Shown here piece after piece: positions 111-42,309 of a stretch of 44,516 nt of DNA. The position numbers were made by a program, and so were the translations under genes. The notes beneath the pieces are model-generated. The model was not told where the DNA came from and made no database searches. It was given only the letters and a program-made list of their open reading frames with translations. The DNA lies in IMG/VR virus record IMGVR_UViG_3300044713_000162, positions 1-44,516 of that record; one strand, given 5' to 3'. This stretch comes from a virus. Position 1 is the first letter of the stretch; every line of letters starts with the position of its first letter.

Positions 111-231
111 CGGGACGGGCGCGGCGTGATCGTTTGCGGCAATCGCAGCGCTCCACTCGGCGATTGCCGTAGGCGTCGATCATCACCAAGCGCCATCCGG
201 AGCCGTCGCACATCGGGCAGCTCTGAGTCAT
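1..231 (-). CDS. Cysteine-rich zinc-binding protein, 5' part (crosses the circle join)
   Basis: The gene starts at ATG 231, overlapping the stop of the J-domain gene as ATGA. It codes for 77 residues before the window edge and continues at 44406 for 13 more, giving a 90-residue protein ending at 44365. It opens with CPMCDGSGW, which has the CxxCxGxG pattern of DnaJ zinc fingers, followed by CDC and a second cluster of about eight cysteines. I infer a small zinc-binding protein. Because it lies directly after a J-domain gene, it may supply a detached DnaJ-like zinc module, but the match is only the motif. It is too short at either edge to be obvious without joining the ends. Confidence 0.8.
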   Translation of the reverse strand, partial: MTQSCPMCDGSGWRLVMIDAYGNRRVERCDCRKRSRRARPAKRAAAAIVGPRICVNCLLGNCSECDRDGCICACMAT

Positions 232-836
232 GAGGCCAGCTCCAATCGGGCGGCGTCGCGGGCCTGCACGATCTCCTCGAACTTGTTTCGGTCGCCGCCC
301 TTGTCGGGGTGATGAATTTGCACCAGCGAGCGGAAGCGCTCTTCGACCATTGGCCAAGTGGCGGCTGCCGTCGTCGATATGCCGAGAACCTGACGCCACG
401 GCCTCGACGCACTTTCAGGAAGGGCCGCGAATCCGAGGAAGGCGCGTTCAAGAATCATCGCGCCGCCATGCCGCTCAATGGCACGCATGGCTTCGAGTGT
501 GGCCGCCATCGCCGCGATGTTATCCGCGACGTGCTGATAGCGATCAATCGCCATGCACCGCATCCCGCTCTTTTTCGTCTGCCAGTACACCGCGACGCCG
601 GGATCGCTCGGCTCCTGGTCGCTGCGCGGCATTCCATCGAGACGAAGCGGAATATTCGTCGAGACGATGATGTCGTCGGAGTTGATGCCCATCAGCCGAA
701 ATTCGTTCAGCACGCGCAGAGTGGCGTCCCGCACCGAAATCCACTGATTCCCCGTTTTGAAGTGGCCGAACTTTCGCGACTGGGTGCGCTTCCAGCCGTC
801 CGGCCAACACAACGGAAATGATTTGCGCTCGCTCAT
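228..836 (-). CDS. Phage protein with C-terminal J domain
   Basis: This 202-residue protein ends in a J domain of about 60 residues, with the diagnostic HPD at residues 176-178 inside HHPDKGG, followed by a helix. J domains stimulate Hsp70 (DnaK) ATPase, so the protein probably recruits host DnaK, as lambda replication does with DnaJ. Residues 1-130 do not resemble DnaJ and carry no Gly/Phe linker or zinc repeats. They may bind a phage client. The start is ATG 836, overlapping the upstream stop as ATGA. The next gene carries a CxxCxGxG motif. The J domain is firm; the client and the process are inferred. Confidence 0.85.
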   Translation of the reverse strand: MSERKSFPLCWPDGWKRTQSRKFGHFKTGNQWISVRDATLRVLNEFRLMGINSDDIIVSTNIPLRLDGMPRSDQEPSDPGVAVYWQTKKSGMRCMAIDRYQHVADNIAAMAATLEAMRAIERHGGAMILERAFLGFAALPESASRPWRQVLGISTTAAATWPMVEERFRSLVQIHHPDKGGDRNKFEEIVQARDAARLELAS

Positions 837-2988: not shown

Positions 2989-3254
2989 GCCACCTCCCGC
3001 GAGAACCGCACCACGCGTTCATCCCCGCAATACGGACAGCACCCAAACAATCCGTTCCCCACCTGAAACTCCGCCACAAATCGCTGCGTCTTTCCGGTGC
3101 ACTTGCAGAAATCTTCGAACTCGATGGGAACCTGCAGTTCGGAAATCGGGAGGACGGCGGGAGCTGTCGCAGTAGTTTCCCCCTCACCGCCGTCCTCGCG
3201 GCCGACCGGGAACCGGGGGATCTCGGTCGGCAAAGTGAAGTCGAAGTCTGTCAT
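2985..3254 (-). CDS. Zinc-ribbon protein, 89 aa
   Basis: The start ATG 3254 overlaps the upstream stop as ATGA. The first 45 residues are low-complexity. The C-terminal half has CKC at about residues 50-52 and CCPYCG at 72-77, spaced as in a small zinc ribbon. Such modules bind nucleic acid or protein partners. It lies in a run of translationally coupled early genes just before the methyltransferase. No function can be assigned. Confidence 0.75.
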   Translation of the reverse strand: MTDFDFTLPTEIPRFPVGREDGGEGETTATAPAVLPISELQVPIEFEDFCKCTGKTQRFVAEFQVGNGLFGCCPYCGDERVVRFSREVA

Positions 3255-3535: not shown

Positions 3536-4360
3536 CTAGGGACTCGCTTCCATCTGATAGCCCCAAAACTTCAGGGCCTCGATGACGGACTCTTCGGTGC
3601 GGTGCCACCGTTCGCAGACGGCGCTCAGTGCGGCGCGCCAGCTCAGTTTGGGCCGATAGCGCGGATCGCCAGGCTCCAGCTCTGTACCGTATTCGCTGTG
3701 AGTGCAGCCCTTCATAACGACGGCCATGTTGGCGACGAACTTCGCGCAGTCGCGTTTCGTCAGCTTCGGCTGGGGAGCGCGCTCGGTGCTGCGGTGCTCG
3801 GGCTTTTCCGCGGCGGGAGTGGCCCGCTGTGGAGCTGGCGCGGCGGGAGCTGGAGACTTCGGTGGGGGCGCGGTGGGTAGTGCGGGCTTGCGGATCGGCG
3901 TCACTTCGCCCGCGGATTCGGCGCGGTGGGCCTGCCGCCATTGCATCAGCAGCGAAATCGGCAGGCGGTGCGTGGTCACCCGGCGATAGAGCCCATTGTC
4001 GCTGTCGGTGCGCGGGCGAATCCAGATGTGGTGACAGTTGCCGCGGCGGTCGCGGTGCGCGATTTCAAGCAGGCCCAAATCTTCCGCGGCTCTGAGGTTG
4101 TAGCGCACGGTCGAATCGCTGCGGTAGTAGCAGGCCTTGCGGTAGTCACCCACGGCTTTGAACAGTTGCACATCGGCTCCGAAGGGGCGGCCGGCGGCGA
4201 TCCACATGCCGCGCAGGAAATGCCGGAAGCGTCGCGAGAGCAATTCCGCCGGGCAGGTTTCGAAGAAATTCTCGATCTCGGCGCGGGTGAAGAAATGGCG
4301 CTGATTTGCGCTTTGGGAATCGCCCGAATTGCGGTAAGCTGTCGCTGTTGACGCTGCCAT
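3536..4360 (-). CDS. Putative replication initiator/organiser with winged-helix domain
   Basis: The start ATG 4360 is preferred because GAGG precedes it, though closely (three bases); a GTG at 4396 has no ribosome site. Residues 20-125 look like a winged-helix DNA-binding domain, including a segment of the type STVRYNLRAAEDLGLLEI. A linker of about 60 residues rich in Ala and Pro follows, then a conserved C-terminal helical part ending in a Trp/Tyr-rich helix. This order, DNA-binding domain then linker then helicase-loader-like tail, is typical of phage replisome organisers (lambda O, DnaD-type). It lies 1 kb downstream of the iteron-like repeats. The function is inferred from architecture and position. 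Confidence 0.5.
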   Translation of the reverse strand: MAASTATAYRNSGDSQSANQRHFFTRAEIENFFETCPAELLSRRFRHFLRGMWIAAGRPFGADVQLFKAVGDYRKACYYRSDSTVRYNLRAAEDLGLLEIAHRDRRGNCHHIWIRPRTDSDNGLYRRVTTHRLPISLLMQWRQAHRAESAGEVTPIRKPALPTAPPPKSPAPAAPAPQRATPAAEKPEHRSTERAPQPKLTKRDCAKFVANMAVVMKGCTHSEYGTELEPGDPRYRPKLSWRAALSAVCERWHRTEESVIEALKFWGYQMEASP

Positions 4361-4416: not shown

Positions 4417-4923
4417 TCAGGCCGCCGGATCGCGGCGGCGGAGCTCGTCCAGCTTCACAGACCGGACAGGCTTACGAGGCGACGATGCGTCGCCCCAAAC
4501 TTTGTCGTGGAGTTTCCCGAGCTTGGCTTCGCGCGCGGCGAGAATGCGCGGCCAGACCTGGTCCGGATGACACTGCAACACCTGCCACGTCGCCGCCTCG
4601 TACGGCGTCGCGTAGCCATGCAGCGACCAGCTGGGGATGCCGTGCTGCGCCCAACGAGTTGCGATCCACGCGATGCGGAGATCATCGCGGAGCCAGGGAT
4701 CGGTTTCTTGCTTTTCCGCCGCTTCCAGGTGGAGCAGGACTCGCCCTGTCCAGCTCACGCCGTCTTGCCCAACTGCACTCACGCGCTCCTGGGGAAGCGC
4801 GTCGAAACTTATACGCTGTAAAACCTCAACCTGAAACGACCGAGGCCAAATTTTTACGGAAACCGGAAAAAGGGCGAGCGCGGCGGCCCAGAACACCGCG
4901 CGGGCCAGCAGGCAGTTTTTCAT
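4417..4923 (-). CDS. Membrane-anchored protein of unknown function, 168 aa
   Basis: The start ATG 4923 overlaps the zinc-ribbon gene's stop as ATGA. Residues 5-25 form a hydrophobic helix that could be a membrane anchor or an uncleaved signal. The rest is soluble, rich in Trp and His (for example DPWLRDDLRIAWIATRWA). No family is recognised. It lies between the zinc-ribbon protein and the replication candidate in the early leftward unit. Confidence 0.65.
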   Translation of the reverse strand: MKNCLLARAVFWAAALALFPVSVKIWPRSFQVEVLQRISFDALPQERVSAVGQDGVSWTGRVLLHLEAAEKQETDPWLRDDLRIAWIATRWAQHGIPSWSLHGYATPYEAATWQVLQCHPDQVWPRILAAREAKLGKLHDKVWGDASSPRKPVRSVKLDELRRRDPAA

Positions 4924-5237
4924 GCAGTCGCCGCCTGGGCTTGGGAGTCAGAAACCGCCGTGGAGGGCTTGCGCGCGGAGAGCGGCAAGGTCTGATAACA
5001 GGTACGGGGTAAACCTTCCGCCCCGACTTCATTGAGGTTCGGAGGGGCACCGTGCGGCGGCGGATGGGGCGGCCCGGCGTTCGGGTAGCGCTCCCGGTCC
5101 CACTTCATGGTGCGGCATTTTTGGTTGGGGCAGCGACGAGGGGGATTCTTGCGGCGCGGAATCCAGGCGGTCCCGCACATCTGGCACTCGTACCCTCTGC
5201 CTTCCTTCGTGACGATGACCTTCACGACTTCAGCCAT
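4920..5237 (-). CDS. Zinc-ribbon protein, first gene of the early leftward unit
   Basis: The start ATG 5237 gives MAEVVKVIVTKEGRGYEC. Cysteines are arranged CxxC at residues 18-21 (CQMC) and CPNQKC about 15 residues later, a small rubredoxin-like zinc ribbon. The C-terminal half is proline-rich and disordered. A putative promoter ends only about seven bases upstream of the ATG, so its message may be leaderless. As the first gene it could be a regulator, but this is inference. Confidence 0.7.
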   Translation of the reverse strand: MAEVVKVIVTKEGRGYECQMCGTAWIPRRKNPPRRCPNQKCRTMKWDRERYPNAGPPHPPPHGAPPNLNEVGAEGLPRTCYQTLPLSARKPSTAVSDSQAQAATA

Positions 5238-5244
5238 GCGAGCC

Positions 5245-5273
5245 AGTATCCATAGCGAATGACAATGCGTCAA
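5245..5273 (-). promoter_or_regulatory. Putative sigma-70-type promoter for the early leftward unit
   Basis: On the minus strand TTGACG (5273-5268) is followed after exactly 17 bases by GATACT (5250-5245). The -35 matches consensus at five of six positions and the -10 at four of six. Transcription would begin at about 5238, next to the ATG at 5237. Confidence 0.5.
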
Positions 5274-5282
5274 GGGAAATCT

Positions 5283-5319
5283 GTGAACCCTTGTGGAAAT
5301 GTTGCCCTTGCAGGTTCAC
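5283..5319. promoter_or_regulatory. Inverted repeat upstream of the early promoter
   Basis: GTGAACC (5283-5289) and GGTTCAC (5313-5319) form a perfect 7-bp inverted repeat with 23 bases between. The half-site centres are about 30 bp apart, close to three helical turns, which would suit looping or two bound dimers. It lies 10 bases upstream of the putative -35. Confidence 0.4.
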
Positions 5320-5355
5320 CCGCCCCGAAGTGTGTCAAATTTTACCCACCAGTTC

Positions 5356-5423
5356 TTGCCGAACGATGAAGACTGCCGAGCGGCAATTCCTGCCGAACGA
5401 CAGAACCTGTTGAACGGCAAAAA
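5356..5423 (+). repeat. Four tandem 17-bp iteron-like repeats (candidate origin)
   Basis: Four copies of a motif like CTGCCGAACG start at 5356, 5373, 5390 and 5407, each exactly 17 bases apart. The core is TGCCGAACGA, TGCCGAGCGG, TGCCGAACGA and TGTTGAACGG. An A-run (from about 5419) and a less GC-rich segment with AGTATCT twice follow, as a melting region might. This iteron plus AT-rich layout is typical of replication origins bound by phage or plasmid initiators. The repeats lie inside the genome's longest non-coding interval and near the replication candidate. They could instead be operators. Confidence 0.6.
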
Positions 5424-5545
5424 AAAGCTCTGAAGTATCTCAGTATCTAGAAGGAAAGAGCAGTTGAGGGTTTTAGGTTTTGAAAGACTAGAAGCTTCCC
5501 CCCTCACCCCCATCGCCGTCGGCGCTGCCTGAAAATCACGCGGAA

Positions 5546-5564
5546 GCGCGCAAACCCCGCGCGC
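5546..5564. other. GC hairpin in the non-coding interval
   Basis: GCGCGC (5546-5551) and GCGCGC (5559-5564) flank a 7-base loop. There is no T-run after it on either strand, so termination of the leftward unit ending at 5685 is possible but unproven. The remainder of 5424-5684 shows no gene. Confidence 0.35.
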
Positions 5565-5684
5565 GATCTCACCCCAAGGCTTTTATTTGGACGAGCAACC
5601 CCAACGGCTCGCCTGTCGAAGCGGCGAAGCACGCCAGGTTCCACTCGGAAAGGGAGACAGCGGGAGAACTGCAGGCGGGAAAAA

Positions 5685-6109: not shown

Positions 6110-6463
6110 TTACAGCGAGAGTCCGTCGAGGGCGACCGCGGCGTTCGCCAGCATGCGCGCCAGGCGGATGTAGTTGATCGCGACCGTGCGATCCATTCCA
6201 GGCGGGCAGTTTTGCAGAATCACTTCGGCAAAATTCTTTCCGGCTTGGTTGATCGCTGCGAACTTCGCCAGCGTGGTCGGCGTGGGCGGGTGATAGTTAA
6301 AAAGCGCGTCGACGATCTGGGCCTCGGTCATCAGCGGCCGGTTGCAGCCCGCGCTCATCTGGTCGCAATGTTCACGTTCCCACATTGCACGCTTCTCGCG
6401 GGCTTCGCGAATTTCGCGCGGCTCAACTCCCTGCGTCTTTTCGACATCGGCTTCTGGGTACAT
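6110..6463 (-). CDS. Acb2/Tad1-family cyclic-nucleotide sponge (anti-CBASS/anti-Thoeris) candidate
   Basis: The start ATG 6463 gives 117 residues; a TTG at 6499 is possible. The C-terminal 65 residues match the pattern of the Acb2/Tad1 helical-hairpin family as I know it: F-x-YH-x-P at residues 55-60, then a helix with AGKNFAEVI around K76, a CPP turn, and a second helix reading ARMLANAAVAL at 102-112. Acb2 oligomers bind and sequester cyclic di- and trinucleotides that activate CBASS effectors; relatives bind Thoeris signals. An extra basic N-terminal extension of about 48 residues is present. The gene leads a short unit diverging from an operator-controlled gene. The family call rests on motif recall, not on an alignment. 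Confidence 0.72.
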   Translation of the reverse strand: MYPEADVEKTQGVEPREIREAREKRAMWEREHCDQMSAGCNRPLMTEAQIVDALFNYHPPTPTTLAKFAAINQAGKNFAEVILQNCPPGMDRTVAINYIRLARMLANAAVALDGLSL

Positions 6464-6525
6464 GCGGCCACTGTACTTTCGTGCGCTATTGTCGAGCAAG
6501 GTTCCCGAAGTAACCAGCTGTGCTA

Positions 6526-6567
6526 GAGTTTGTTAACAAACCCCAAGCGAGTTTGTTAACAAACCCC
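6526..6567. promoter_or_regulatory. Tandem palindromic operators
   Basis: The perfect 14-bp palindrome GTTTGTTAACAAAC occurs at 6528-6541 and 6551-6564, within a 19-base direct repeat (6526-6544 and 6549-6567). The centres are 23 bp apart, about two helical turns, so two dimers would bind the same DNA face. The sites lie 20-60 bases before the rightward gene at 6584 and in the divergent region of the leftward unit. A repressor would control one or both. Confidence 0.75.
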
Positions 6568-6583: not shown

Positions 6584-6967
6584 ATGGGCCGTCCCCGTCC
6601 CGCGCAAGTCTGCTGCTCCTCGAAATGCCGCCGTGAAATTCAGCCCACCGAGAAGGGCATCGCCGTCACCCTGTTCGCGCAAACCCTGGGCATGGGCACG
6701 CGCAAAACGTCCAAGTCCGAACGGCTCTATCTCTGCCCCCAGTGCGCCTTCCGCGTGGCCAGCGACACCGAGCCCTCGAAAAACGCGCCGGTCGATCTGG
6801 CTTTCTTCCGCGTGCTGCTCGACATCGCGGGCCTCGATTCCGCCGTGACCGATGCGATGGTCGAGCAACTGCAGGAGCGCCGCCAGGCGATTCTCTATCC
6901 CACGGCCCAGCTCGGCGAGGGGGAAATCCTTCCGCCCCCGCCGCGGCGCTTGCGCGAAGCCAGCTAG
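6584..6967 (+). CDS. Lone rightward gene, zinc-binding protein, 127 aa
   Basis: The start ATG 6584 follows CAGGAGGGAACCAAAC, a strong ribosome site. The N-terminal half has CCSSKC (residues 10-15) and CPQC (about 51-54), a zinc-binding arrangement. The C-terminal half is helical, then proline-rich. Two identical operators lie immediately upstream, so this gene is tightly regulated and may be a regulator or an immunity factor. Its stop overlaps that of the converging gene by CTAG. No family is recognised. Confidence 0.75.
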   Translation: MGRPRPAQVCCSSKCRREIQPTEKGIAVTLFAQTLGMGTRKTSKSERLYLCPQCAFRVASDTEPSKNAPVDLAFFRVLLDIAGLDSAVTDAMVEQLQERRQAILYPTAQLGEGEILPPPPRRLREAS

Positions 6968-39168: not shown

Positions 39169-39402
39169 ATGGCTGCCCAGCATCTTACCGCTCTCGCTTC
39201 CCCGGAATTTCCACAGGTCCTCGACGTCTGCTTTTCCCGGCTACAAGATCAGGTCGCGCGGGTGATGGCCCAGAGCTATCTCTCGGAGTGCGACTTCGAA
39301 GATCAGTACGGAGACTGCCGCCAGCGGGCCACCGTGCATCACCTGGAATCGGAAAAAGAGTATTGTGCGGATCACTTCCGGAAGGTGGTGCAACGTGGCT
39401 GA
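39169..39402 (+). CDS. First gene of rightward early unit, 77 aa
   Basis: ATG 39169 follows CGGAGGCTCAC. The protein begins MAAQHLTALASPEFP and has a helical first half (LDVCFSRLQDQVARVMAQSYL). The second half carries Cys residues at SECDF, GDCRQ and KEYCADHF plus HH, which could bind zinc. No family is recognised. It follows the promoter directly and overlaps the next gene by eight bases. Confidence 0.7.
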   Translation: MAAQHLTALASPEFPQVLDVCFSRLQDQVARVMAQSYLSECDFEDQYGDCRQRATVHHLESEKEYCADHFRKVVQRG

Positions 39403-39700
39403 TTTCACTCGCGGTCCGTGGAAGGTCGCCCACTCTGGTTACGCCAATTCTCCCTTCGTCATCTTCGCCGGGGATCGAGCGCCGAATTTCCGCACGCGCT
39501 TTCCGCTCTCCGGTGTCAACGCCATCGCTGAGATTTTTCACGATGAGAGCCCTGCCCATGAAGAGCAGGCCGCCAACGCTTCTCTAATCGCCGCCGCGCC
39601 GGAACTCTTCGACGCGCTTGAACGTTTGCTTGAGAGCGACGGGATCAGCAACCGCGAATTCGCCCGCAACGCCCTTGCGAAAGCGAAGGTGACCCGGTGA
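39395..39700 (+). CDS. Conserved phage protein, 101 aa
   Basis: GTG 39395 follows GGAAGGTGGTGCAAC. The pattern GPWKVAHSGY early and QAANASLIAAAPELFDALERLL near the C-terminus is shared by many small phage proteins of unknown role in early regions. It overlaps the next start as GTGA. Confidence 0.75.
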   Translation: MADFTRGPWKVAHSGYANSPFVIFAGDRAPNFRTRFPLSGVNAIAEIFHDESPAHEEQAANASLIAAAPELFDALERLLESDGISNREFARNALAKAKVTR

Positions 39701-39927
39701 CCCACGCCGACCTCGCCGAATTCGAAACCCTCTTGCAGCGCCGCGAGCTGGCCGCCGTCACCTGCGTCACGGCCATCCAGTTCGTGCTGCTGATGTTTGA
39801 AGCGCAGGACTTTGAACCCGCACGAAAGTATTTGCAGGACGCGCTCGATCAGCACAAGGCGGCCGACGTCGCCATCGCGGCATTTCACGCTCGACATTTC
39901 AAAAAGGAGCAATCGCATGCAGCCTAG
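39697..39927 (+). CDS. Unknown helical protein, 76 aa
   Basis: GTG 39697 overlaps the previous stop as GTGA. The protein is helical (ADLAEFETLLQRRELAAV, AIQFVLLMFEAQDFEPARKYL) and resembles small early phage proteins. Its end overlaps the next start by 11 bases; that start has its own ribosome site AAAAAGGAGC inside this gene. Confidence 0.65.
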   Translation: MTHADLAEFETLLQRRELAAVTCVTAIQFVLLMFEAQDFEPARKYLQDALDQHKAADVAIAAFHARHFKKEQSHAA

Positions 39928-40711
39928 CAACGGACAGTTCCACGAAGACACACAGCCCGGTGTAGTTCTGATCCCGGCGCCCGCGCTCGAGCACGCACTC
40001 GCTCTGCAACGCACTCCGCAGATCGTGATCGACGAGGCTCGCAAAGCCGCCGCGGCACTGAATGCGATCATCGAAGCCAAACCGAACAAACTGGTCCTGA
40101 ACGATAAGACCTACCTCTGGTACGAAGATTGGCAAATGCTCGGCCGGTTTTATGGCGTCACCGCGGGTTCGGCGGACCAGGTGCCAACGAAGTTTGTGGA
40201 GTACGGCGAAGCCCGCGGCTTTGAAGCGACCGCGGAAGCGCGCCTGGTCAGCACGAATCAGGTAATCAGCCGCGCCGACGCCATGTGTCTCGACGACGAA
40301 TGGAAGTGGGAAGGGAAGCCGCTCTTCCAGTTGAAATCCATGGCGCAGACTCGAGCATGCGCGAAAGCTCTCAGAAATGTTCTCGCCTGGGTTGTCGTCC
40401 TGGCCGGCTATTGCCCAACGCCGGCGGAAGAGATTGAGGCCGATCGGCCGTCCACGTCGACGACGCCGGCGCCGGCACCTGCTCAATCAATTCCCGCACC
40501 GCCCACTGCCGCGAAGCCGATCGCAACGCCGCGGCGTGCAGGACTGATCTCTGAGGCGCAGATCGGCCGGCTGTATGCCATCGGCCGCGATCGCGGAATC
40601 TCGAAGGCCGACGTTAACGCCTGGCTGGGGCAGTGTGGATTCGCCAGCGCGAAGGAAATCCCCAAGGCGCGCTACGAGGCTCTGTGCAATGCGCTGATGG
40701 GGGTGCAGTGA
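39917..40711 (+). CDS. Putative single-strand annealing/recombination protein, 264 aa
   Basis: ATG 39917 follows AAAAAGGAGCAATCGC. The central domain (about residues 60-150) ends with QLKSMAQTRACAKALRNVLAWVVVLAGY, a motif with the SMAQTRAxxKALR pattern I associate with annealing proteins of the ERF/RecT/Sak type. A Pro/Ala linker follows, then a C-terminal helical domain (LISEAQIGRLYAIGRDRGIS, IPKARYEALCNAL) found at the end of phage recombination proteins. It sits directly before a PD-(D/E)XK nuclease, the normal partner. The exact family is not certain. Confidence 0.5.
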   Translation: MQPSNGQFHEDTQPGVVLIPAPALEHALALQRTPQIVIDEARKAAAALNAIIEAKPNKLVLNDKTYLWYEDWQMLGRFYGVTAGSADQVPTKFVEYGEARGFEATAEARLVSTNQVISRADAMCLDDEWKWEGKPLFQLKSMAQTRACAKALRNVLAWVVVLAGYCPTPAEEIEADRPSTSTTPAPAPAQSIPAPPTAAKPIATPRRAGLISEAQIGRLYAIGRDRGISKADVNAWLGQCGFASAKEIPKARYEALCNALMGVQ

Positions 40712-41313
40712 TGGCGACCGCGACATTCACCGCTGAGGGGCACGTCTACACTCACGACGGCAAAGTCGTGCCCAGTGTGACGCAAGTGATCACGCTCGGC
40801 GGCGTCGACGAGCTGGCTGGCGTCCCGCGGCGCGTGCTGCAACGTCCAGGCGAAATCGGAACCGCGGTGCACCTGGCGACCCGGTATCTCGACGAAGGCG
40901 ACCTCGAGGTCGACTCACTCGATCCCGCGATCGTCGGCTTTGTGCTCAGTTGGGAACGCTTCAAGAAAGAGCACGACTTCACGCCCGTGGTGATCGAGCG
41001 TCGCGGCATCAGCGTCGATCCTGGGAGTGGGCTGGTCTTCGGGTTCTGCCTCGATCGCATCGGCATGCTGGGCGATCGCGAAGCTCTGCTCGATCTGAAA
41101 ACCGGGTCCGAGGCGCTGGCGAGCTGGGGCGTGCAAACCGCCGGCTATGCTGAGGCCTCGGAATTCGACGGACCGCGCATGAGTGTCCACCTGTTCGAGG
41201 ACGGCACCTGTGGCGAGCCGATCCCGCATGAAGAGGCCGACGATTTTGCGCAGTGGCATCGCGCGCTCGAGACGGCATACTGGCGCCTGGCACACGGAGC
41301 GAAGATCAGATGA
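40711..41313 (+). CDS. PD-(D/E)XK nuclease (RecB/exonuclease type)
   Basis: ATG 40711 overlaps the previous stop as TGATG. This 200-residue protein has the order of RecB-like nuclease motifs: GTAVHLATRYLDEG (His motif, about residues 51-64), GFCLDRIG (Asp, about 111-118), LLDLKTG (the D-x-K of the active site, about 127-133) and then Q-TAGYAEA (QxxxY). It is shorter than full lambda-type exonucleases. It probably degrades one strand of double-stranded ends and loads the annealing protein. The two genes form a recombination cassette. Confidence 0.85.
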   Translation: MATATFTAEGHVYTHDGKVVPSVTQVITLGGVDELAGVPRRVLQRPGEIGTAVHLATRYLDEGDLEVDSLDPAIVGFVLSWERFKKEHDFTPVVIERRGISVDPGSGLVFGFCLDRIGMLGDREALLDLKTGSEALASWGVQTAGYAEASEFDGPRMSVHLFEDGTCGEPIPHEEADDFAQWHRALETAYWRLAHGAKIR

Positions 41314-41558
41314 CCTACCTCACTATTTTCACCAACCAGAAAGCGATTCGCGATATCACCGAGCAGCAAGAGCGCAAATTTGCATCCGGCGCGACGGGCT
41401 GGGAAACCGTCAAAGTCGGCACTGAGGAAGTCACTTTTAACATTGCGATCGACTCGGAGCAAATCGCCCAGATGGCGCGGATCGCCGCGCGCAACAAGAG
41501 CCAGCGCTGCAAAGATGGCGCTGTCCTGGTCGAGGTCGTGACGCGAAAACGTCTTTAA
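41310..41558 (+). CDS. Unknown protein after the nuclease, 82 aa
   Basis: ATG 41310 overlaps the nuclease stop as ATGA. A soluble protein with beta strands (EEVTFNIAIDSE) and a helix (AQMARIAARNKSQRCKDG), ending in basic residues. No family is recognised. The interval 41559-41656 to the next gene has no gene. Confidence 0.65.
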   Translation: MTYLTIFTNQKAIRDITEQQERKFASGATGWETVKVGTEEVTFNIAIDSEQIAQMARIAARNKSQRCKDGAVLVEVVTRKRL

Positions 41559-41656
41559 CCACCTTCTCGGCCCACCAGCCAGGGCTTGCGACGCCGAGAA
41601 TACCAACCGGGGGGTCTGACGGGTGGGACGGACCTCTCAAAGAATTGGAGCGCGAC

Positions 41657-41968
41657 ATGAACCTAGGCGATCTCTGCATCTGCGGTCACACGCTCGAAGT
41701 CCACTTTGGCCATGAATGTTCGATTGTCGCCGGAAGCCGTCCCTGGATTCGGCGCGACTGCCAGTGCAAACAATTCGTGGTCTGCGATCTCGGCGTTCCT
41801 GTGTTTCAAGCGCTGAAGGCCAGCTATCAGGAGATGGTCGGTCTGAAAGCCTATCTCGAAACGTGCAACACCGATGTCATCGTGGATAATCTTCCGTCGC
41901 TCATCGAGAGTCTGGGCCGGAAGTGCACCCTCGTTGCAGACTTACTCCGCGAAGCCGACAAGCAATGA
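41657..41968 (+). CDS. Cysteine/histidine-rich zinc-binding protein, 103 aa
   Basis: ATG 41657 follows GGAGCGCGAC. The N-terminal half carries CICGHTLEVHFGHEC, then CQCKQFVVCD, enough Cys and His for a zinc site. The C-terminal half is a helix (YQEMVGLKAYLETC, LPSLIESLGRKC). The stop overlaps the HNH gene as ATGA. Confidence 0.7.
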   Translation: MNLGDLCICGHTLEVHFGHECSIVAGSRPWIRRDCQCKQFVVCDLGVPVFQALKASYQEMVGLKAYLETCNTDVIVDNLPSLIESLGRKCTLVADLLREADKQ

Positions 41969-42309
41969 TCCGCCGCCGCCCCATCCCCAAATTCAAGCTG
42001 CACCCGCCCGTCTCCCAGCACTACGAACTCATCCTGGAGGGAGCCGTGAGGCGATACCGGGATGGGAGGGAAGTGTGCCAGGACTCCCCGGCGGGCTGGC
42101 GGGAATACAAACGCAGAGTTGGGGTGATGGTCCAGCGCCAGAACCATCGTTGCTGCCTCTGTGGCAGGCGCTTATCGCTCGCACAGGCCACTTTTGAGCA
42201 TCAGCGGCGCAGAGGGATGGGAGCAGCGTGGAGAGACGACCGGATCACGAAGGACGGTCAGGATTGGAACGGGGCGGCGCACTGGGTGTGCAACGGGGAG
42301 AAGGGCTAG
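41965..42309 (+). CDS. HNH-type endonuclease-like protein, 114 aa
   Basis: ATG 41965 overlaps the upstream stop as ATGA. The C-terminal half has CCLCGRRLS, then ATFEHQRRRGMGAAWRDD and NGAAHWVCNGEKG. The pair CxxC, the E-H of FEHQ and the N...HWVCN match the beta-beta-alpha-metal HNH nuclease layout. It could be a recombination nuclease or a packaging cofactor; those usually lie near terminase, which this does not. The leading 50 residues are basic. It converges with the leftward unit. Confidence 0.75.
   Translation: MIRRRPIPKFKLHPPVSQHYELILEGAVRRYRDGREVCQDSPAGWREYKRRVGVMVQRQNHRCCLCGRRLSLAQATFEHQRRRGMGAAWRDDRITKDGQDWNGAAHWVCNGEKG

Follow-up and report, generated by a model that had tools for sequence, protein, structure and literature searches.

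A phased array of dyad iterons as a probable initiator-binding site in the replication origin of a phage

The window, which is the whole 44,516-bp virus record analyzed here (61% G+C, with a terminal direct repeat of 110 bp), contains four phased 17-bp repeats upstream of a leftward replication operon, and comparison with related loci suggests that positions 5357 to 5424 are very probably the initiator-binding part of the replication origin of this phage, whose host is a soil bacterium. The protein encoded at 3536 to 4360 is the candidate initiator and is predicted, with good though lesser confidence, to bind the array. An earlier note, made from the sequence alone, had proposed an iteron origin at this site with the same candidate initiator. 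That reading is favored by the comparative evidence: position and layout are conserved among relatives while the repeat units change, the array is lost where a Rep_1 protein takes over the initiator locus, the relative L062 has similar iterons, and DnaA domain I is found on two proteins equivalent to the candidate initiator.

The array and its surroundings in the window

The features of the region are listed in Table 1. The sequence at 5357 to 5424 bears out the earlier statement that four units occur at exactly 17-bp spacing, and the A-run said to follow them is present. The units are, in order, TGCCGAACG, TGCCGAGCG, TGCCGAACG, and TGTTGAACG, so the further claim that a single motif recurs four times holds for the spacing and only in part for the sequence: TGCCGAACG is exact in two of the four units, with one mismatch in another and two in the last. 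When the consensus of four units of 9 bases was scored at periods of 10 to 30, the array was the top-scoring four-unit periodic site of the window (33 of 36). The maximum score in 100 first-order Markov genomes was 31, and in simulations of the local 453-bp interval the score of the array was reached in 0 of 300. The iteron array is confirmed as real and beyond chance. Every unit also shows imperfect dyad symmetry (TGCCGnnCGGCA), a feature absent from the earlier note, and in unit 2 (TGCCGAGCGGCA) the inverted repeat is broken only at the center. The dyad form suggests that the units are dimer sites, putatively for the initiator.

Table 1. Features of the candidate origin region and of the leftward gene run in the window
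Feature	Positions	Strand	Description or basis
DnaJ-like protein	228–836	-	Downstream in the same leftward gene run; PF00226, phrog_9210
Candidate initiator	3536–4360	-	Predicted N-terminal DNA-binding (HTH) region, Pro/Ala-rich linker, C-terminal domain
p4417, conserved protein	4417–4923	-	Relatives' loci
Small cysteine-rich, zinc-ribbon-like protein	4920–5237	-	First operon gene; ORF, start at 5237
Sigma-70-like promoter	5245–5273	-	TTGACG-17-GATACT, read from the sequence; directed into the replication operon, with the array behind it
Iteron array	5357–5424	+	Four 17-bp units, starts at 5357, 5374, 5391, and 5408
A+T-rich flank, proposed unwinding element	5425–5484		62% A+T versus 39% for the genome
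Conserved block GATCGCGCGC	5559–5568	-	Between H2 and the A+T-rich side
Block H2 TTGGGGTTGCTCGTCCAAA	5586–5604	-	Conserved, adjoins H1
Stem-loop H1	5608–5629	-	Conserved stem, TTCGCC/GGCGAG in the window; loop variable

The intergenic interval that holds the array, described in the earlier note as the longest without genes, spans 5238 to 5684 (447 bp) and is bounded by the gene at 4920 to 5237 and by a possible 33-aa ORF; longer apparent gaps elsewhere in the window were given by a simple gene caller, which missed small genes. The A+T-rich flank lies on the side of the array away from the promoter, and just 0.17% of the genome's 60-mers are equally A+T-rich. In the further elements that bear arrays, the same side is the A+T-richer one in 13 of 14, with one tie. 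Stem-loop H1 was found in 15 of 18 regions, with its varying pair being C-G in 7 and T-A in 8 and with no mismatches, and 4 of these 15 contigs (L013, L024, L026, and L037) also match our search pattern, which covers part of the loop. TTTTCCACA occurs close to arrays in 10 of the 18 regions and could represent DnaA boxes; it is absent upstream of host dnaA in the one dnaA fragment examined.

PHROG scans agree with the earlier statement that the phage encodes no polymerase or helicase, with none of 40 scanned ORFs matching such a family. Cumulative GC skew, which had been suggested as a check, does not place an origin at the array. Its minimum is at 3122, and it is uninformative here because the curve is nearly flat from 1 to 8 kb and almost all genes are on one strand.

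Several other features of the window were recorded. The leftward gene at 6110 to 6499 encodes an Acb2/Tad1 hairpin-domain protein (PF24729, 2e-9, above the cut-off), a possible CBASS/Thoeris counter-defense protein, and relatives of this type lie near the origin region in L054, L055, L057, L060, L080, L088, L089, and L093. Two perfect 14-bp palindromes, GTTTGTTAACAAAC, at 6528 to 6541 and 6551 to 6564 (23 bp start to start), lie just upstream of a rightward zinc-ribbon-like gene (6584 to 6967) and are a probable operator. A short phage integrase (36555 to 37085, leftward; PF00589, 176 aa), in which an N-terminal arm-binding domain is not evident, indicates that the phage is probably temperate. 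A separate rightward early module at 39169 to 42309 encodes proteins that we read as RecT-like and RecE-like, neither with a Pfam match; the RecE-like protein has a relative in L019 and the RecT-like protein has one in L093. Genes with long coding repeats of short period occur in L019 (8900 to 9090) and L093 (6750 to 7559) and give (AVRS)n-like or (ADLAYR)n-like proteins.

Relatives of the array and of the candidate initiator

Relatives were gathered by searches with the DnaJ-like protein (phrog_9210, 3e-46; PF00226, E 8e-4, below the cut-off) and then with p4417, which gave 40 loci. A search with a DNA pattern based on the block adjoining the array recovered the L013 contig once more, together with two additional viral contigs. 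In genome contigs, the same pattern gave 25 matches, of which only L037, on a contig of an Acidobacteriaceae MAG, has the layout; the other 24 were judged by eye to be chance. Alignment search of genome contigs with the DnaJ-like protein gave no matches, single-sequence searches with the proteins of 3536 to 4360 and 4920 to 5237 found no relatives, and an exact-pattern search of viral contigs with the window's own iterons gave three matches, all of them unrelated tandem repeats. The contig of a near relative, G001 (TerL 90%), ends before the origin.

The window shares a collinear intergenic region with L013, L024, L026, and L037, in the order H1, H2, GATCGCGCG, A+T-rich side, array, and promoter side. 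The arrays of these four relatives have a period of 16 or 17 and score above every simulation, and their unit sequences differ (TGTCGCATGCGACA-like, TGCGGCnGGCCGCA, TGTCGCnGyGACA, and CTACnnGTAG). Related phages keep the layout, mostly with a covarying stem-loop upstream of the array, an A+T-rich flank, and the promoter side downstream, and each has a repeat sequence of its own that is apparently matched to its own initiator.

L081 (4030 to 4400) and L093 (3975 to 4220) keep H1, and T-rich (TTTCTGCTG) or TG-rich (TTTTGTGGTGGT) repeats replace the dyad array; no HTH-type initiator was seen in either, and they are perhaps a third replicon type. A TATTATGTTAA-like element, absent from the window, is conserved after the first small replication-operon gene in five relatives (L010, 6842; L014, 7642; L024, 5481; L026, 2271; and L037, 6325). 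We take this element to resemble one arm of E. coli dif, and the phage-like stretch of L037 seems to end near it.

Thirty-six of the 40 p4417 loci have enough upstream DNA for analysis (L058, L059, L070, and L082, with short upstream sequence, were dropped). An array was called significant if its score was reached by no more than 3 of 300 simulations. By this measure, 15 of the 36 loci have a significant periodic array, 11 of the 16 with an HTH-type initiator and 4 of the 20 others (Fisher p 0.004 for any period), with the types being assigned from ORFs and family matches after the arrays had been seen, not blind. All 11 arrays at HTH-type loci have a period of 16 to 17, and none of the 20 other loci has an array at these periods, the 4 arrays there having other periods (p 7e-6 when only periods 16 and 17 are counted). 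No array passing the scan was found in the remaining 5 HTH-type relatives; in a narrower scan, L055 (three units of 18 bp) and L072 (three units of 17 bp) pass and L071 fails. Same-contig pairs are L024/L054, L026/L056, L013/L069, L012/L083, and L010/L092, and L074 and L076 have one shared array region. The initiator position of L014, L088, and L089 is occupied by the rolling-circle protein Rep_1 (PF01446), and there is no 16- to 17-bp array at these loci. The window's 3536 to 4360 protein has no Rep_1 match.

In L054, L055, L056, L060, L061, L062, L063, L064, and L069, a single ORF is read through both p4417 and the HTH initiator, which ties p4417 to replication. The protein of 4920 to 5237 has relatives in L012, L014, L066, L068, and L072. 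Our reading of an HTH in the candidate initiator is based on relatives with weak HTH matches. The window's protein itself has no replication family match in Pfam or PHROG at E values up to 1 and no PDB match, the best for the N-terminal alignment A6 being DnaA 2wp0 (E 0.14). Profile matches of the C-terminal domain in PDB (AMPK stretches and two others, E 0.01 to 0.8) were taken as chance. AlphaFold models made without an alignment are poor, with a pLDDT of 41 for the window's initiator and 38 for a second initiator.

The one close full-length relative of the window's initiator is that of L062 (43%, E 1e-51). The L062 array, TGTCGCTCAACAGATTC and further units, resembles the window's iterons, and the flank GGGTAAAATTTGACACAC beside the iterons is the same in both. 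The C-terminal domain recurs in L057 (64%), L063 (53%), L071 (53%), L066 (40%), and others, next to N-terminal domains that belong to a different family (the N-terminal score of the window against L057 is 0.04). L064, which matches the window's initiator over its length (37%), chiefly through the C-terminal part, has different iterons. L024 and L026 present the reverse case, with N-terminal parts that are alike and C-terminal parts that differ. In L072 (1.5e-9) and L080 (5.5e-7), the C-terminal part of the equivalent protein is DnaA_N, which is DnaA domain I, both matches being above the cut-off; E. coli DnaA domain I binds DnaB (excerpts of PMC6127211). As judged from these alignments, the candidate initiator is a modular two-part protein with exchangeable C-terminal domains.

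Iteron similarity tracks N-terminal similarity across 15 elements (rho 0.27, p 0.017) but does not track C-terminal similarity (rho 0.11, p 0.19); L037, which has no initiator, is outside these tests, and L055, L071, and L072 are included despite failing the main scan. Within family B (8 loci, including L071, which has no array passing the scan), overall N-terminal similarity is not predictive of the iterons (rho 0.19, p 0.18), and among 8-residue windows of the N-terminal alignment the highest correlation falls on the predicted recognition helix (rho 0.69, scan-wide permutation p 0.045). When L071 is left out, the peak is still on the helix, with a scan-wide p of 0.17 and a p of 0.0095 for the helix window as fixed from the scan of all 8 loci. 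An earlier comparison of helix classes in family B used a class chosen after the data had been seen. The link between iterons and recognition helix in family B is suggestive.

Alternative functions and a proposed mechanism

The dyads near the promoter look operator-like, and a DNA-binding protein is encoded in the operon that they would regulate. It is nevertheless unlikely that the array is an operator only, through which the 3536 to 4360 protein or another regulator represses or activates the leftward operon from the promoter at 5245 to 5273, with the origin elsewhere. The array stands clear of the −35 box, ~83 bp upstream of it, the conserved A+T-rich flank and the stem-loop block lie on the far side of the array, the array is absent where Rep_1 replaces the protein, and the equivalent proteins of two relatives contain DnaA domain I. 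Autoregulation may operate alongside the origin role.

Centromeres, too, can consist of short phased repeats that precede an operon, and in this respect the array resembles a centromere for partition or some other site of protein assembly of the ParB/ParR type. However, the scanned proteins include no member of a ParA/ParM/ParB-like family, and the repeats track the N-terminal domain of the candidate initiator, which in two relatives ends in DnaA domain I, so that we consider such a site, in place of an origin, highly improbable. Slighter still is the chance that the array acts as RNA, whether as a structured leader, an antisense RNA, or a terminator. Both strands of 5345 to 5430 give stronger folds than shuffled sequences do (z −3.3 and −2.9), but dyads must fold in this way, the array region has no Rfam match, and the fold of the L013 array is unremarkable (z −1.3). 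In addition, the period is conserved while the sequence changes, which fits a phased protein array.

If the array is the initiator-binding part of an origin, analogy with lambda (PMC5043065, PMC7466680) suggests how it might work. Dimers of the 3536 to 4360 protein would bind the four dyad iterons through the N-terminal HTH domain, and the adjoining A+T-rich side, at about 5425 to 5490, would melt, helped by negative supercoils behind the 5245 to 5273 promoter, which fires away from the array. Recruitment of the host's replicative helicase would fall to the C-terminal domain, acting by itself or via a partner.

A broader proposal, which we regard as evenly balanced, is that the window and its relatives represent a modular class of Acidobacteriota phage replicons in which origin and initiator evolve as exchangeable cassettes. 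A conserved frame of stem-loop and A+T-rich DNA would hold a fixed lattice of four 16- to 17-bp dyads, and the dyads would be rewritten together with a few recognition-helix residues (CRRTVQRR, CRSTVQRR, and CRSTARWR go with different dyads). The C-terminal part that recruits the helicase would be exchanged on its own, in some cases for DnaA domain I, and in others a rolling-circle Rep would take the place of the entire protein. If true, origin choice in this class would follow a natural code of protein-DNA specificity. With limited search terms, we found in the open-access literature no description of such a replicon class and no characterized replication origin for Acidobacteriota phages. 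Acidobacteriota are abundant soil bacteria, and a complete origin and its initiator, together with a dozen or so pairs that have diverged in nature, could provide plasmid tools for them, as well as a data set on the coevolution of initiator and origin specificity.

Comparison with known replicons

The iteron plasmids RK2, P1, F, and pSC101 have initiator-binding repeats beside an A+T-rich region (excerpts of PMC5043065), as does the window. In contrast to their direct repeats without a dyad, the window's units are dyads, and no plasmid Rep family was found in its initiator by Pfam or PHROG. The pri-rep-ori region of PICIs is similar in belonging to a phage-related element and in having iterons and an A+T-rich region, but there the origin is 3′ of rep and two iteron sets flank the A+T-rich region (as described in part of PMC6092414), whereas the window has one set, upstream of the operon. 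The likeness to bacterial DnaA and oriC lies in the DnaA domain I that forms the C-terminal part of the L072 and L080 initiators. Unlike DnaA, these proteins have no reported AAA+ or DnaA DNA-binding domain, their domains follow another order, and their sites are phage specific.

In lambda O, the N-terminal part binds DNA and the C-terminal part is on the helicase side, and the same division is predicted for the window's protein. The lambda origin and the candidate origin of the window both have four phased inverted-repeat iterons adjoining an A+T-rich stretch, with a promoter nearby, and lambda uses the host replisome, as the window's phage probably does (sections of PMC5043065 and PMC7466680). 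The lambda origin is inside the O gene and has 19-bp repeats, whereas the window's array is about 1 kb upstream of the initiator gene, has 16- to 17-bp units among its relatives, and is accompanied by a conserved stem-loop block; its initiator, unlike lambda O, matches no known family. No lambda P-like protein was recognized in the window, and possible partner proteins, identified by position in L024/L054, L060, L061, L069, and L073, have no replication family match where scanned. By analogy the window's candidate origin would work like that of lambda, but it is not a member of the lambda family: its array does not lie within the initiator gene, and its proteins show no sequence relationship to those of lambda.
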